The notes under the pieces: model-generated
Databases searched by the model: none
The model's input: only the letters and a program-made list of their open reading frames with translations
What the model was told of the DNA's origin: nothing
Shown here: positions 42,809-48,837 of the stretch, piece after piece
How positions within the stretch are numbered: position 1 is the first letter of the stretch
How the letters are laid out: the number at the start of each line of letters is the position of its first letter
Assembly: GCF_900156625.1 (NCBI RefSeq)
Contig: NZ_FTOB01000006.1
Span: forward strand, 124,001 to 188,000
Source: Zobellia uliginosa
GTDB lineage: Bacteria > Bacteroidota > Bacteroidia > Flavobacteriales > Flavobacteriaceae
Direction: 5' to 3'
DNA length: 64,000 bases
Translations under genes and position numbers: made by a program

Positions 42809-43168
42809 TTAATATTGACCTGTAGCCAATAGGACCAAGGTGCAAGCCACGACCACTTCAATCCCTTTGGATTCCAGTAATTTGTATAATTCGGGGTTTT
42901 CAGTGCCCGGATTAAATATTACACGTTTCGGGTTTATTTGTAAGATTTTATCGATATATTCAGGCTGGCGAGCTGGACCGATATATAAAGTAATGGTGTG
43001 AATGTTTTGAAATTCGCTTAAATTGGTCTTTATTTGTATACCCCTGATTTTACCTTTTCGAAGGCCGAATGCTTCTGTTTTGATGTTATGGTCTACTAGG
43101 CGATTTACCGCCAGATTGCTGTAACGATTCGTTTTGAGCGAGGCTCCGAATACCAGGGTAGTTTTCAT
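42809..43168 (-). CDS. CoA-binding protein (YccU-like)
   Basis: A 119-residue Rossmann-fold protein of the CoA-binding 2 family. It starts TLVFGASLKTNRYSNLAVNRL (nucleotide loop) and has RVIFNPGTENPELYKLLESKGIEVVVACTLVLL at the end. Family members bind CoA in structures, but the cellular role is unclear. It is a stand-alone gene converging with the sodium symporter; 62 bp separate the stop codons. Confidence 0.88.
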   Translation of the reverse strand: MKTTLVFGASLKTNRYSNLAVNRLVDHNIKTEAFGLRKGKIRGIQIKTNLSEFQNIHTITLYIGPARQPEYIDKILQINPKRVIFNPGTENPELYKLLESKGIEVVVACTLVLLATGQY

Positions 43169-43393: not shown

Positions 43394-44401
43394 TTACCAT
43401 TTAATAATAACACTGCCCCAAGTGAAACCGCTACCGAAAGCCGCCAAGACCAGCAAATCGCCTTCTTTGACCTTTCCTTTTTCCCATGCTTCGGTAAGGG
43501 CTATAGGAATAGATGCAGCGGTAGTATTGCCATATTTCATAATGTTGTTATACACTTGGTCATCGGAAAGTTTGAATTTCTTTTGGATAAATTGTGAAAT
43601 ACGCAGATTGGCCTGATGCGGCACAAGCATATCAATATCTTCAGGAGTCAACCCATTGGTCTTCAAGCCTTCCATAATCACCTCACTGAATCGCACCACC
43701 GCATTTTTAAACACGAATTGTCCGTTCATATACGGAAAATAAGACTCATCGTTAGGATCGTCATCTTCAATGATATCGGTAACCCAGCGCTTACCCATAC
43801 CTGGCGCTATCAAAGAAAGCTCTTCGGCATGTTGGCCTTCGCTGTGCAAATGGGTGGAAAGAACACCTTTTGAATTGTCTTCCTCCCTACTGAGCACGGC
43901 GGCACCCGCACCATCACCGAATATCACCGAAACCCCCCTACCCCGGGTGGTCATATCGAGGCCATGGCTATGCAGTTCCGAACCGATAACCAAGACATTT
44001 TTATACATGCCGCTCTTGATATACTGATCAGCCACACTTAAGGCGTAAATAAACCCGGAACATTGATTTCTAACATCTAATGCCCCCACGGTCTTTATCC
44101 CCAAATCTCGTTGTACCAGTACACCGGGGCCAGGAAAATAATAATCGGGACTCAAAGTGGCGAAAACGATAAAATCGATATCATCTTTGTCGATACCGGC
44201 ACGTTCAATAGCTATTCTTGCCGCTTTAACACCCATGGTGGTCGTAGTATCGGTACCTTTAACCACATGTCTTCTCTCTTTTATACCCGTACGTTCTTGG
44301 ATCCATTCATCATTGGTATCCATAATCTTGGCCAAGTCGTCATTGGTCACTACGTTTTCGGGCACAAAATATCCTAGTCCCGTTATTTTTGAATTATACA
44401 T
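43394..44401 (-). CDS. 3-oxoacyl-ACP synthase III (FabH paralogue)
   Basis: A 335-residue thiolase-fold condensing enzyme. The Cys-His-Asn triad is visible: Cys114 in RNQCSGFIYALS, His262 in VPHQANLRI and Asn292 in GNTTAASIP. The C-terminal GSGFTWGSVIIKW is the FabH ending. It condenses an acyl-CoA with malonyl-ACP. The housekeeping fabH of flavobacteria normally sits next to rpmF and accBC; here the neighbours are an ABC1 kinase and a TetR-type protein, so this is probably a second KASIII with a special starter or a role in a lipid or quinone side pathway. The ABC1 gene ends 109 bp upstream. Confidence 0.94.
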   Translation of the reverse strand: MYNSKITGLGYFVPENVVTNDDLAKIMDTNDEWIQERTGIKERRHVVKGTDTTTTMGVKAARIAIERAGIDKDDIDFIVFATLSPDYYFPGPGVLVQRDLGIKTVGALDVRNQCSGFIYALSVADQYIKSGMYKNVLVIGSELHSHGLDMTTRGRGVSVIFGDGAGAAVLSREEDNSKGVLSTHLHSEGQHAEELSLIAPGMGKRWVTDIIEDDDPNDESYFPYMNGQFVFKNAVVRFSEVIMEGLKTNGLTPEDIDMLVPHQANLRISQFIQKKFKLSDDQVYNNIMKYGNTTAASIPIALTEAWEKGKVKEGDLLVLAAFGSGFTWGSVIIKW

Positions 44402-44510
44402 AGAAGATTTTTTAAAAATTTAAAAGCAAACGCTTTCAACGTATTGCAAAGTAACCCGTAAATTTCTAAGATATGCAAAAATTATAAGATGATTTTGATC
44501 TTCCGATATT

Positions 44511-45821
44511 TTAAGATAAGTACCGCTTAAAGCTATCGACCTCAATTTTTGCGTTAAGGTCATGGAGGAGATTGTAAAGACCGAAGAAAGTACGGTTCAT
44601 ATAAAGGAAGTGCTTAGACCCCCTATTCCCGTTCATTTTTCGTATTTGACTGTCTTTCGAATAGCGTTCGCTCAAATCGGCGATTTTCTCCCAAAAATCA
44701 TTAGAGCCAAAATCAAAATACTCCTCATTGAAGGGCGAGGTAAACAGCGAAAGCATTTCTTTAAAAAGCGCCTTAAAGAACTTCAATTCTTCAGGGGAAT
44801 CGGTTTCCGTCAATATTTCCAACTCATACAGCTTTTCCATAAAAACGGCATCGTTTTCAATGTTCCGTTTTTGTGCCAACTCAAAATAAGGCACATAAAA
44901 TTCCTTGGGCACCTCTTTAATACACCCGAAATCTATAGCGATCAAGCTATGGTCTTCGCTTATCAAAAAGTTACCGGGATGCGGATCGGCATGGACCTTT
45001 CTCAAACCGTGAATTTGAAACATATAGAAGTCCCATAATGTCTGACCTATACTATTACCGACTTCCGGATCAAATTCCTTCTTGGTAAATTCACTTAGGT
45101 GCCGCCCCTGCATCCAATCCATAGTGATAATACGCTCGCTGGAAAGTTCTTTATAGTATTTAGGAAATTTAAGGTTCTTGATGGCCGAGCATTTCTCGGT
45201 AATTTCGATACTTTGTTCAATTTCAAGCAAATAATCGGTTTCCTCGATAAGCTTGTTCTCTACCTCCTTAAAATACTTATCCGAGTCCTTGCCCTGCAAG
45301 TTGAACATTCTGATGGCTATGGGCTTTACCAAGGCCAAATCACTTGATATGCTCTCGGCTACACCTGGATACTGTATCTTGACCGCCAAGGCTTTGCCAT
45401 CTTTGGTAGCCTTGTGTACTTGACCTATACTGGCCGCGTTCACACTATCTTTTTCAAAGGTATCGAAGAGTTCTTCAGGGTACTTGCCCAGATATTTCTT
45501 AAACGTTTTTCTAACCAATGGTGCCGACAGTGGTGGCACCGAAAATTGAGATAACGAAAACTTGTCGACATAGGCCCTCGGCAATAAGTTTTTTTCCATA
45601 CTCAACATCTGGGCTACTTTCAATGCACTTCCCTTTAGGCTTTTAAGCCCGTCATAGATATCTTCGGCATTGTTTTCGTTGAGTTCGTCTTTCCCTAGCT
45701 CGGGGTTGACCATTTTTTTTCCGTAGTACTTCACATAGTTTCCACCGATCTTTACACCCGTCTTAACCAGTTTGCCTGCTCTTTCTATCTTACCCGTGGG
45801 TATACTATCAAGTGTCTTCAT
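44511..45821 (-). CDS. ABC1/AarF/UbiB family atypical kinase
   Basis: A 436-residue protein of the ABC1 (COQ8/ADCK/UbiB) family, with the signature segments KGSALKVAQMLSME (KxGQ-like region), AASIGQVHKATKDGKALAVK (Ala-rich loop and the ATP-binding Lys), the metal/catalytic motif HADPHPGNFL and AIDFGCIKEVP. COQ8 and UbiB are lipid-linked ATPases needed for quinone synthesis. Bacteroidota use menaquinone, so its substrate here is uncertain. It starts 36 bp after the TetR/COQ9-like gene and is followed by a FabH paralogue in the same direction. No membrane helix is obvious. Confidence 0.93.
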   Translation of the reverse strand: MKTLDSIPTGKIERAGKLVKTGVKIGGNYVKYYGKKMVNPELGKDELNENNAEDIYDGLKSLKGSALKVAQMLSMEKNLLPRAYVDKFSLSQFSVPPLSAPLVRKTFKKYLGKYPEELFDTFEKDSVNAASIGQVHKATKDGKALAVKIQYPGVAESISSDLALVKPIAIRMFNLQGKDSDKYFKEVENKLIEETDYLLEIEQSIEITEKCSAIKNLKFPKYYKELSSERIITMDWMQGRHLSEFTKKEFDPEVGNSIGQTLWDFYMFQIHGLRKVHADPHPGNFLISEDHSLIAIDFGCIKEVPKEFYVPYFELAQKRNIENDAVFMEKLYELEILTETDSPEELKFFKALFKEMLSLFTSPFNEEYFDFGSNDFWEKIADLSERYSKDSQIRKMNGNRGSKHFLYMNRTFFGLYNLLHDLNAKIEVDSFKRYLS

Positions 45822-45857
45822 ATGTTTTTGTTAAGTCGAGAATAATGAAGCACCCCG

Positions 45858-46514
45858 TTATGCCATAGCCTCTTTATACAAGAATTTCCCGAAATCGATT
45901 ATATTTTCCAAAGGCGTATGATCAAAGATGTCGAAAACGGTGTTGATCGATTTTTCAATGGCCAGGTCGGTTTTTTCAAAACCAGATGAACTGTCATCCA
46001 TCCAAAACTTCAATACGAACAGAAACTGCAACCAGGCCCCTTCAGAAAATATCTTGGGATTGTACTTCGTGATTTTGCTACTTTTTCCCGCATTGGCCTC
46101 ATCGATCAAACCTATAGCAAAGCCCTTCACCAAGTGCCGTAAATCTTTCAACTGCGCCAAATTCTTGAGTGCATTCCGATGTTCGGTCAAAGTGAGCAGC
46201 ACATAGCTCCGGTTTAAGGTAAGCAACTCAAAAAAGGTAAAGAAGAAGGTCAACATCTTTTCTTTGTTCGAAAGGCTTTCGTATTCGTCGTTCTTGTCCA
46301 AAAGCGCTTCGGTATGGGCGTAAAATTTGCCCCATATTGCTTTCTGCAGGGATTCCACCGAACCAAAAAACGCATAGAAATCGGTTTCGGCAATCTTGTT
46401 TTCCTTACAGAACCTGTATATCGATTTCGGTACCGCATCATGCTCGAGAACGTAGTCCATATAGAGTTCAATGATGCGATCTTCCGTAATTTTATTTGTT
46501 TTTCTCTTAGCCAC
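45858..46514 (-). CDS. TetR-fold protein, possibly COQ9-like
   Basis: A 218-residue helical protein. The N-terminal 55 residues look like a TetR HTH (TEDRIIELYMDYVLEHDAVPKSIYRFCKENK then FYAFFGSVESLQKAIWGKF), starting from a GTG at 46514. The C-terminal domain is all-helical and hydrophobic (TFFFTFFELLTLNRSYVLL, WLQFLFVLKFWMDDSSSGF), reminiscent of COQ9, which is a TetR-fold lipid-binding protein and functional partner of COQ8. The next gene, 36 bp downstream, is an ABC1/COQ8 homologue. So it may be a lipid carrier rather than a repressor, or a repressor of the cluster; the sequence does not settle it. Confidence 0.8.
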   Translation of the reverse strand: MAKRKTNKITEDRIIELYMDYVLEHDAVPKSIYRFCKENKIAETDFYAFFGSVESLQKAIWGKFYAHTEALLDKNDEYESLSNKEKMLTFFFTFFELLTLNRSYVLLTLTEHRNALKNLAQLKDLRHLVKGFAIGLIDEANAGKSSKITKYNPKIFSEGAWLQFLFVLKFWMDDSSSGFEKTDLAIEKSINTVFDIFDHTPLENIIDFGKFLYKEAMA

Positions 46515-46947
46515 GATTCTTGAGTTTTATTACATAAAGTTACGCCTTAAAGGCTTTAATTACTGTTAAGGGTATACCAATTCTTTGTCTAATTTAAAAA
46601 ACGTGCTTTCCGAAGAAAACACGCTCTTAAACAACCTAACAATAATTAATTTAAACGTGATCCAAACTAAAACGCTCTTTCTCATAGCAATTTTAATCAC
46701 ATCCATGATCAAATATACAAAATGTTTAACTATTTTCAAAAATAATTAAACAAAAAGACAATTGTGCCATTTCTTCAAAGTATGGAACAGCAGAATGCGC
46801 CAGTTTGTCACTCTTACCAGATGTGGTATTTTTTTTGACGGGCACCGTCTAGGTAATTACAACTGTGGTTCTTTTATGCCCAAGAACCAAAACAAATATT
46901 AAACTATAGGTCAAGCTACGGCGAGTACCTTACTAAAATTATAGTAT
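46515..46947. other. Intergenic region with candidate heat-shock elements
   Basis: A 433-bp AT-rich gap between the TetR-fold gene and htpG with no credible gene. Two similar 14-mers, GTGCCATTTCTTCA (46764) and GCGCCAGTTTGTCA (46797), match in 10 of 14 positions and start 33 bp apart. A small perfect hairpin GACGG-GCA-CCGTC is at 46837-46849. These are about 100-180 bp upstream of htpG. Confidence 0.4.
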
Positions 46948-48837
46948 ATGGCAACAGGTAAAATCAACGTATCGGTGGAGAATATTTTTCCGCTGATTAA
47001 GAAATTTTTGTACAGTGACCACGAAATCTTCTTAAGGGAGCTAGTGTCGAACGCGACCGATGCGACGCTTAAACTGAAGCACCTGACCTCTATAGGCGAG
47101 GCCAAGGTAGAGTACGGCAACCCGATGATTGAAATAAAGGTCGATAAGGAAGGAAAAAAAATACACGTTATAGACCAAGGTATCGGTATGACGGAAGACG
47201 AGGTCAAAAAATACATCAACGAGCTTGCTTTTTCAGGTGCCGAGGAATTCTTGAACAAATATGAGGACGGTGCCAAGGAAAGCGGAATTATAGGTCATTT
47301 CGGTTTAGGCTTTTATTCGGCCTTTATGGTAGCTGATCAGGTAGAGATCAATACCAAAAGCTTTAAGGAAGACGCCGAGGCGGTACACTGGAGCTGTGAT
47401 GGATCGCCGAATTTTACCTTAGAGCCCGGTAGCCGTCAAGAACGCGGTACGGAAATCATCCTACACATTGCGGAAGACTCGACCGAGTTTTTGGAAGACA
47501 GCCGCATCAGTCAACTTCTAAACAAATACAACAAGTTCATGCCGATACCGATCAAGTTCGGCACAAAAACGGAGACCTTACCCAAACCGGAAGATGCCAA
47601 GGAAGACGATCCGGCGCCTACCCAAGAAGTAGACAACATCATTAACAACCCTAATCCGGCTTGGACGAAGCAGCCTGCCGACCTAGAGGAGAAAGACTAT
47701 AAAGAGTTCTACCGCGAGTTGTACCCCATGCAGTTCGAGGAGCCCTTGTTCAATATTCACCTGAACGTAGACTACCCCTTCAACCTTACCGGTATTCTAT
47801 ACTTCCCTAAGTTGACCAACGACCTCAATGTACAGAAAGACCGAATTCAGCTGTACCAAAACCAGGTTTTCGTTACCGATAACGTCGAGGGCATCGTGCC
47901 CGAGTTCTTGACCATGCTTCGCGGTGTAATCGATTCGCCCGACATTCCTTTGAACGTCTCTAGATCATATCTACAGGCCGATGGTGCCGTCAAGAAAATT
48001 TCTTCGTACATAACGAGAAAAGTCGCCGATAAATTGAATTCATTGTTCAAGAACAACCGCGAGGAATTTGAGCAAAAATGGAACGACATCAAAATCGTTA
48101 TTGAATACGGAATGCTCAGTGAAGACAAGTTCTTTGAAAAAGCTGACAAATTTGCACTTTACCCCACTGTAGACGGTACCTACTATACGTTTGAGGAACT
48201 ACAGGAAAAAATCAAGGAAAACCAAACCGACAAAGACGACAAACTCGTTGTTCTTTATGCCTCAGACAAGGTAGCCCAACACAGTTATATCGAGGCTGCA
48301 AAGGCAAAAGGTTATGAAGTGCTTTTGATGGATTCCCCCATTATTGCCCATTTGATGCAAAAATTGGAAACCTCAAAAGAGAAACTTTCCTTTGCCCGTG
48401 TAGATGCCGACCATTTGGACAACCTGATCAAGAAAGAAGATGCCCAAATCTCTAAATTATCGGACGAGGAAAAAGAAACCCTTAAAAAGAACCTTGAGGA
48501 GGTAATTACCGATAAGAGCTACACCGTGCAACTTGAAGCTATGGACAGTGACGCCTCTCCCTTTATCATTACCGAGCCTGAGTTCATGCGCCGTATGAAA
48601 GAAATGCAGCAAACCGGTGGTGGCGGTATGTTCGCTATGGGGTCGATGCCCGATATGTACAACCTTATCGTAAATACCAACCACCCGCTCGTAGGCGAGA
48701 TATTGAACACCAAAACCGCCAAAAAACGCGAACGCCTAATCAATCAATCCATAGATTTGGCACGACTCTCAAAAGGGTTGCTAAAAGGTGAGGAATTAAC
48801 GAACTTTATCAAACGCAGTTATGACATGGTAAAGTAA
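46948..48837 (+). CDS. htpG: Chaperone HtpG (Hsp90)
   Basis: A 629-residue ATP-dependent Hsp90 chaperone. The GHKL ATPase motifs are in order: RELVSNATDA (with Glu and Asn), VIDQGIGMTEDEV, and IIGHFGLGFYSAFMVAD. The middle domain has LTNDLNVQKDRIQLYQNQVFVTDN and LNVSRSYLQADGAVKKI, and the C-terminal dimerisation domain follows. Length is typical of bacterial HtpG (about 620-630). Start at the ATG at 46948. Single gene closed by a strong terminator. It helps mature client proteins under heat and other stress; possible control elements lie upstream. Confidence 0.98.
   Translation: MATGKINVSVENIFPLIKKFLYSDHEIFLRELVSNATDATLKLKHLTSIGEAKVEYGNPMIEIKVDKEGKKIHVIDQGIGMTEDEVKKYINELAFSGAEEFLNKYEDGAKESGIIGHFGLGFYSAFMVADQVEINTKSFKEDAEAVHWSCDGSPNFTLEPGSRQERGTEIILHIAEDSTEFLEDSRISQLLNKYNKFMPIPIKFGTKTETLPKPEDAKEDDPAPTQEVDNIINNPNPAWTKQPADLEEKDYKEFYRELYPMQFEEPLFNIHLNVDYPFNLTGILYFPKLTNDLNVQKDRIQLYQNQVFVTDNVEGIVPEFLTMLRGVIDSPDIPLNVSRSYLQADGAVKKISSYITRKVADKLNSLFKNNREEFEQKWNDIKIVIEYGMLSEDKFFEKADKFALYPTVDGTYYTFEELQEKIKENQTDKDDKLVVLYASDKVAQHSYIEAAKAKGYEVLLMDSPIIAHLMQKLETSKEKLSFARVDADHLDNLIKKEDAQISKLSDEEKETLKKNLEEVITDKSYTVQLEAMDSDASPFIITEPEFMRRMKEMQQTGGGGMFAMGSMPDMYNLIVNTNHPLVGEILNTKTAKKRERLINQSIDLARLSKGLLKGEELTNFIKRSYDMVK

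Follow-up and report, generated by a model that had tools for sequence, protein, structure and literature searches.

A fixed pair of TetR-fold and ABC1 genes in Zobellia uliginosa and other Bacteroidota, with a suggested link to carotenoid and photolyase operons

Background

Here we present an analysis of a two-gene unit of Zobellia uliginosa, in which a gene for a TetR-fold protein is followed by one for a soluble ABC1/COQ8-like protein, and of the inverted-repeat box that precedes it. The unit lies in a 64,000-nucleotide stretch of contig NZ_FTOB01000006.1 (assembly GCF_900156625.1, positions 124,001 to 188,000 of the forward strand), referred to below as the window. No paper on such a pair was found among open-licence papers. 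The use of ATP by COQ8 and UbiB proteins is itself still debated, according to excerpts of two papers (PMC7263595, PMC7615680).

Results

Layout of the locus

The TetR-fold gene, the ABC1 gene and a gene for a KASIII protein follow one another in that order on the minus strand (Table 1), with 36 bp between the first two and 109 bp between the second and third, just as a first-pass annotation made from the sequence had described them. That annotation had gone on to propose a COQ9-like and a COQ8-like protein acting with the KASIII enzyme in one lipid-handling module.

Table 1. Features of the locus, numbered by position in the window
Feature	Position	Strand	Remarks
TetR-fold gene (PF17931)	46514->45858	minus	218 aa, GTG start; proposed non-DNA-binding lipid/partner-binding subunit
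Degenerate helix-turn-helix, residues 28-53	46356..46433	minus	invariant E43; V53 where canonical TetRs carry Lys
Conserved C-terminal motif FWxxDxSxxFExTD...IEKS...DFGKF, residues 171-211	45882..46004	minus	end of motif low-confidence in model
ABC1/UbiB/COQ8-family atypical kinase/ATPase gene	45821->44511	minus	436 aa, soluble type
KVAQ, residues 68-71	45609..45620	minus	variant of COQ8/UbiB KxGQ
HADPHPGN, residues 277-284	44970..44993	minus	catalytic motif
30-bp inverted repeat TGTTTAA-N16-TTAAACA	46723..46752		presumed promoter region of the pair
TATATTTG	46710..46717	minus	resembles the Bacteroidota -7 promoter element; immediately follows the box; called from sequence
KASIII/FabH paralogue gene	44401->43394	minus	335 aa; neighbour, probably outside the module
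HtpG gene	46948-48837		divergent, upstream of the TetR-fold gene
CoA-binding protein gene	42809-43168		after the KASIII gene

The TetR-fold and ABC1 genes form a fixed unit

Across 296 sampled genomes of the phylum, with the ABC1 type counted at E values up to 1e-60, the TetR-fold match was present in 76 genomes and the ABC1 type in 92, and all 76 fell within the 92. For the 16 ABC1-positive genomes that gave no TetR match, an iterated profile revealed a TetR-family open reading frame (ORF) upstream. Gene order was read in two sets of 80 loci each: a phylum set, made up of 60 of the 92 ABC1-positive loci and 20 from relatives, and a Flavobacteriaceae set, which was picked for the TetR-fold match and comes nearly entirely from the Zobellia/Maribacter/Salegentibacter side of the family. 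Once the profile had been iterated on the upstream frames, every locus of the phylum set had a TetR-family ORF upstream of ABC1 on the same strand (74 of 80 before iteration); 77 of these ORFs lay within 240 bp, and for three an ORF that by eye is HAD-phosphatase-like stood between them and ABC1. Among the remaining 32 of the 92, one is the window's own genome, 30 have the two matches adjacent by their coordinates, and in G130 they fall on different contigs. The arrangement thereby holds in 91 of 92 phylum genomes, even where identity has dropped to about 20%. Run against the called proteins of the loci, the iterated profile gave 73 matches; the 25 weakest of these, which were listed, included none of the TetR-like ORFs that lie behind ABC1 in loci L102-L104.

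ABC1 was likewise adjacent to the TetR-fold gene in 80/80 loci of the Flavobacteriaceae set, and among 40 relatives, 23 of which carried the TetR-fold gene, it stood directly behind it in all 23. The TetR-fold protein diverges faster, to about 20% identity, than ABC1, which stays at about 40% in the same loci. The TetR-fold gene followed by ABC1 is a fixed unit.

Several observations concern other arrangements. ABC1 genes on other plasmids had no upstream TetR gene in the loci examined (Acinetobacter, Indioceanicola, Vibrio, Sphingomonas, Dinoroseobacter and Streptomyces). On the Dinoroseobacter shibae plasmid pDSHI05 (L126) a DUF3047 gene immediately precedes a soluble ABC1 gene, and DUF3047 might be an ABC1 partner of a different kind. 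A 3c07-like actinobacterial TetR was considered as a further pair and set aside: the Streptomyces cynarae plasmid protein (86.9% identical) has no annotated ABC1 gene adjoining, in a PLSDB table that is incomplete. In L108 (6831-7892) a 353-residue ORF begins like a CYTH-type protein and ends with a match to the TetR-fold profile, either a fusion or a chance read-through. In distant lineages the pair has a queuosine-precursor-transporter gene (TIGR00697) as a neighbour in 13 of 81 loci (L096-L099, L110-L112, L114, L116, L118-L121).

A TetR fold with an altered DNA-binding helix

The sole Pfam match of the TetR-fold protein was TetR_C_23 (PF17931; E 4e-48, 163.2 bits against a cut-off of 29.1), and the same domain was matched in 21 of 22 diverse family members at E values up to 10. 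The DNA-binding domain TetR_N (PF00440) gave no match in the window protein up to E 1, and the protein is not among the 13 TetR_N matches of its genome. Its predicted model nevertheless has a TetR fold (predicted local distance difference test score, pLDDT, 86.8). When the helix-turn-helix region of 23 family proteins was compared with that of 11 of the 13 TetR_N proteins of the genome (two were not extractable), Lys at position 53 was found in 0/23 family proteins versus 11/11 canonical TetRs, and position 43 was Glu in 23/23 family proteins. The mean net charge of residues 40-53 was -1.35 in the family and +1.73 in the canonical set. Because of this acidic recognition helix, the missing Lys and the absence of a TetR_N match, the protein is probably not a DNA-binding repressor.

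Conservation is unevenly distributed along the chain. Among 15 diverse members, mean pairwise identity was 0.47 for residues 10-66, 0.42 for 67-150, 0.54 for 151-199 and 0.61 for the tail, residues 200-215, which is among the least confidently placed parts of the model. Strong conservation together with low model confidence would be expected of a tail that binds a partner.

Kinship with COQ9

A family profile built from diverse members (A3) had as its best PDB matches 3c07 (E 3e-13), a TetR with a good helix-turn-helix domain, and 3ni7 (E 9.5e-10). The latter, from Nitrosomonas europaea, was deposited as a TetR regulator, yet a stretch of it passes the COQ9 cut-off of PF08511 (23.2 versus 20.5 bits), and PF17931 and TIGR02396 are matched below their cut-offs. 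By profile comparison, then, the COQ9 and TetR_C_23 families touch via 3ni7, since this stretch matches profiles of both. The same profiles rule out the window protein as a COQ9: PF08511 gave no match in it up to E 1 and matched 1/22 relatives (E 0.067), while TIGR02396, also a COQ9 profile, matched 2/22 (best E 0.0028). No COQ9 profile match was found anywhere in the genome, nor were COQ9 proteins found in the five large-plasmid records searched. In fold comparison with COQ9 (4rhp), the model gave Z 12.9 and a root-mean-square deviation of 4.5 over 179 residues.

COQ9, which binds isoprenoid lipid, resembles the TetR-fold protein in having a TetR fold without the canonical DNA-binding helix; it differs in its partner, which is COQ7, whereas the partner gene here adjoins and is COQ8-like. 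Of the first-pass description, a conserved unit of a COQ9-like TetR-fold protein, probably no transcription factor, and a COQ8-like protein was borne out, and strict COQ9 membership was not; the profile search that it had called for returned PF17931 and neither PF08511 nor TetR_N.

A soluble ABC1 protein of COQ8A-like predicted fold

The second product matched PF03109 (E 2.4e-53), and the best fold matches of its model were COQ8A (Z 32.8), MSMEG_1954 (27.4) and Rv3197 (24.6). With COQ8/ADCK3 of the UbiB family it shares the protein-kinase-like fold, the HADPHPGN and DFG motifs and an Ala-Ala-Ser loop. It differs in lacking a C-terminal membrane-helix-like stretch, in carrying KxAQ for KxGQ, which we take to be the COQ8/UbiB motif, and in not being a UbiB equivalog (TIGR01982, 149.2 bits against a cut-off of 487.55). 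Among the 150 of 160 loci that could be parsed, KxAQ replaced KxGQ in 142 (the other eight fell outside the search pattern), HADPHPGN was present in 136 and HADTHPGN in 14, and a C-terminal hydrophobic stretch of membrane-helix strength in none. The other ABC1 protein of the genome has KLGQ and a strong hydrophobic stretch.

The protein also shares a soluble architecture of about 440 residues with MABP-1 (Rv3197) and MSMEG_1954. Its long match to the MABP-1 family NF050082 scored 132 bits against a cut-off of 800. The one mycobacterial ABC1 locus examined, on the Mycobacterium marinum plasmid pMMRN (L127), has a divergent TetR/AcrR gene, unlike the upstream co-directional gene here, and a cytochrome P450 gene following.

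An inverted-repeat box upstream of the pair

The TetR-fold gene could be placed in 136 of the 160 loci, and the 400 bp upstream of it were searched for the box. It was exact in 71 loci and present with one mismatch in 29 (100/136 together), its end lying 23-283 bp before the gene; random windows from the same loci contained it, at up to one mismatch, in 67 of 2720 cases, partly at the same sites. TAnnTTTG followed within 14 bp downstream of 63 of the 100 boxes, and the promoter-like element in the window was called from what we take to be the Bacteroidota -7 consensus. All box-bearing loci belong to the Flavobacteriaceae (12 of 17 family members in the phylum sample). Upstream inverted repeats of any kind also exceeded shuffles, but they include terminator-like hairpins, and for this reason only the specific box was used.

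Within the 5.3-Mb genome the window holds the only exact box. Allowing one mismatch adds six sites, among them one at the photolyase operon; with two mismatches the count no longer exceeds background (53 sites versus 63 for the reversed control).

In relatives the same box stands before other operons. It lies 16 bp, from box centre to gene start, before a gene that we presume from its sequence to be crtI in L067-L069, with a gene for a MerR protein with a B12-binding domain directly before the box in L067 and L069 (in L068 this gene is partly visible). It also precedes an SRPBCC-SDR-photolyase operon (L228) and, in the photolyase cluster of L075, L138, L144 and L146, a conserved gene whose product has about 149 residues. 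According to the first-pass annotation, binding sites before unrelated operons would speak against its proposal. The box does precede carotenoid and photolyase operons, yet these are mutually related, and a MerR/B12 protein is more plausible as its binder than the TetR-fold protein is.

Further box copies and leader elements were seen. Exact boxes are also found at L143:4213 and L249:8983, in each case immediately after ABC1 and ahead of a long gene on the opposite strand, and a one-mismatch box in L256 (G000:C10:115833-115862) lies between genes named by eye as mnmA-like and fasciclin-like lipoprotein. A hairpin (12-14 bp stem, 4-nt loop, U-rich end) separates the box from the start of the TetR-fold gene, at 46596-46628 in the minus sense; it is present in 9/9 genus genomes examined (L129-L136 among the loci), with a compensatory pair change in L133, and is possibly an attenuator or a small-RNA terminator. 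A 46-codon ORF in the leader was discarded, as it is not conserved within the genus.

Photoprotection genes around the pair

Outside the Zobellia clade, the surroundings of the pair in the 80 phylum-set loci contained genes for photolyase (19), SDR-DUF2867 (14), the photolyase-related DPRP (9) and flavin reductase (8); at least one of these four was present in 26/80. Genes for crtB (squalene/phytoene-synthase type, 5 of 80), crtZ-like (6) and crtI-like (4) proteins and for MerR with a B12-binding domain (3) were also found, the name crtZ, like crtI, being one we presume. The next co-directional gene downstream was flavin reductase in eight loci, its start overlapping or abutting the ABC1 stop in 7/8, photolyase in five and SDR-DUF2867 in four. 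Among 11 genus representatives with known positions, photolyase lay within 15 kb of the pair in five, versus 0.16 expected; the P value of 1.8e-7 is optimistic, as the 15-kb limit was chosen after the distances had been seen and the genomes are related. In the Flavobacteriaceae set, photolyase was in the flank of just 2/80 loci.

Together, box and neighbourhood suggest a carotenoid/photolyase, that is light, regulon, a link that the first-pass annotation had not suspected. A box common to carotenoid and photolyase operons and lying beside a MerR/B12 gene, as we would look for in a LitR/CarH-type system, was found in Flavobacteriaceae relatives only. In Pseudomonas, genes for photolyase, a cryptochrome-like protein and a short-chain dehydrogenase are under LitR/CarH-family regulators (PMC9758184, in excerpt). 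That regulon shares a similar gene set with the surroundings of the pair and differs in box, phylum and the pair itself, the text of the paper making no mention of ABC1 (PMC9758184).

The KASIII gene

The KASIII protein is complete (ACP_syn_III, PF08545/PF08541), with a catalytic triad that we take to be C114-H262-N292. It had been called a second KASIII, and the genome indeed has six PF08541 matches; one is FabH, followed by genes that by eye are acetyl-CoA-carboxylase-like, and the best match among the KASIII proteins compared was 38% identical. KASIII was the next co-directional gene in 10/80 phylum-set loci, eight of them from Zobellia, and was within 600 bp of ABC1 in 37/80 Flavobacteriaceae loci. 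Adjacency to the pair is confined to the Zobellia/Maribacter side of the family, and in some relatives a long opposite-strand gene intervenes. The neighbourhood survey across the phylum thus kept two of the three genes held to be co-conserved and lost KASIII, which was rejected as a probable module part for its poor co-conservation with the pair. Synteny of the region within one part of the family accounts for the three-gene line that the first-pass annotation described; HtpG, near in 72/80 Flavobacteriaceae loci, is as constant as KASIII, which suggests shared regional ancestry.

Discussion

Starting from the pairing, the loss of the canonical helix-turn-helix residues, the COQ8A-like predicted fold, the common box and the neighbourhood, we propose, with something close to an even chance of being right, that the two proteins are a COQ8/COQ9-like lipid-handling pair, co-induced with carotenoid and photolyase genes and serving membrane protection or repair under light. 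Light would act on a MerR/B12 repressor, freeing the crt, photolyase and TetR-fold/ABC1 promoters (compare LitR/CarH, PMC9758184, in excerpt). The regulator of TGTTTAA-N16-TTAAACA would most likely be this MerR-type protein with a B12 domain, LitR/CarH-like in kind. Every step after transcription is one that we infer. The TetR-fold subunit would have given up DNA binding, its C-domain now holding a hydrophobic, probably isoprenoid, lipid, docking on ABC1, or both; COQ9 has been proposed to present coenzyme Q intermediates in a comparable way. The soluble, anchorless ABC1 ATPase would drive access to the lipid at the membrane surface, on the model of COQ8, which has been proposed to act on coenzyme Q intermediates (PMC7615680, in excerpt). 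In the Flavobacteriaceae the pair would in this way serve membrane protection or repair under light; distant lineages may use it otherwise. The more specific form of this proposal, a bacterial cousin of COQ8-COQ9 in which an ATP-driven soluble COQ8-like protein and a dedicated non-DNA-binding TetR-fold carrier handle a non-ubiquinone lipid (carotenoid, menaquinone or another isoprenoid) and are induced for photoprotection, is possible, but we hold it with considerable doubt.

A number of points weigh against the proposal. The box was found in 0/43 non-Flavobacteriaceae loci, a group that includes the 24 of 160 loci without a placed gene. Outside the Flavobacteriaceae it is the neighbourhood that points to a light role, and often nothing does; an opposite-strand gene comes next in 34/80 phylum-set loci. 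In Z. uliginosa itself the photolyase operon lies elsewhere, and its one-mismatch box could be a chance occurrence. Squalene/phytoene synthase (PF00494) was present in 285/296 genomes and gave no co-occurrence support, being uninformative because it is near universal in the sample. The fold match with COQ9 is tied with those of ordinary and FadR-like TetRs and is below that of 3c07 (Z 17.4). Finally, 7/22 distant members keep a weak TetR_N match (loose limit E 10; best 3.6e-5), and the loss of DNA binding may therefore not hold for all.

That last point, with a TetR fold near real regulators and a box close upstream of the gene, is what an ordinary local repressor would lead one to expect, one that binds the box before its own operon and, on sensing a lipid, regulates ABC1 and perhaps the carotenoid and photolyase operons too. 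We consider this unlikely in view of the acidic recognition helix without Lys in 23/23 proteins, the window protein's want of a TetR_N match, the 43 loci that keep the pair with no box found, and the MerR/B12 identity of the gene before the crtI box.

Somewhat less credence goes to a constitutive helper of quinone or isoprenoid biosynthesis, resembling the COQ metabolon but for menaquinone and with no special light role. COQ8A as the best structural match and the conservation of the pair in lineages with neither box nor photolyase neighbours would suit it. The phylum uses menaquinone, and the ABC1 type is absent, at the limit used, from 204/296 of its genomes, so the pair is not generally needed for that quinone; the box shared with photoprotection operons also argues the other way.

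A three-gene module, in which KASIII starts an acyl chain, the TetR-fold protein carries it and ABC1 releases it, is very improbable: the genes are adjacent and co-directional in Zobellia, L064 and L065, and the 600-bp proximity in part of the family fits, but 70/80 phylum-set loci do not have KASIII as the next co-directional gene, the opposite-strand gene intervenes in relatives, and HtpG is an equally constant neighbour. Least probable of all, and barely so, is binding or neutralisation of lipophilic drugs after the manner of the macrolide-binding protein MABP-1, for although the soluble architecture, the long sub-threshold NF050082 match and the Rv3197 fold score are shared, the match is far under the family cut-off, COQ8A is closer in fold, and the neighbourhood is one of photoprotection rather than efflux.

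Conclusions

The findings correct an annotation, as by their Pfam match the family proteins read as TetR regulators. If the more specific form of the proposal is true, regulators were the source from which TetR-fold lipid carriers were drawn to partner UbiB-family ATPases outside ubiquinone synthesis, and the two proteins would make a simple two-protein system for testing the long-unclear role of COQ8. Zobellia and its relatives would offer a two-gene system independent of ubiquinone synthesis, in which a COQ8-type ATPase and its TetR-fold partner could be studied without the rest of the coenzyme Q complex. In the Flavobacteriaceae, the carotenoid/photolyase gene set gains an as yet unexplained member in the pair, together with a clear, testable DNA box.

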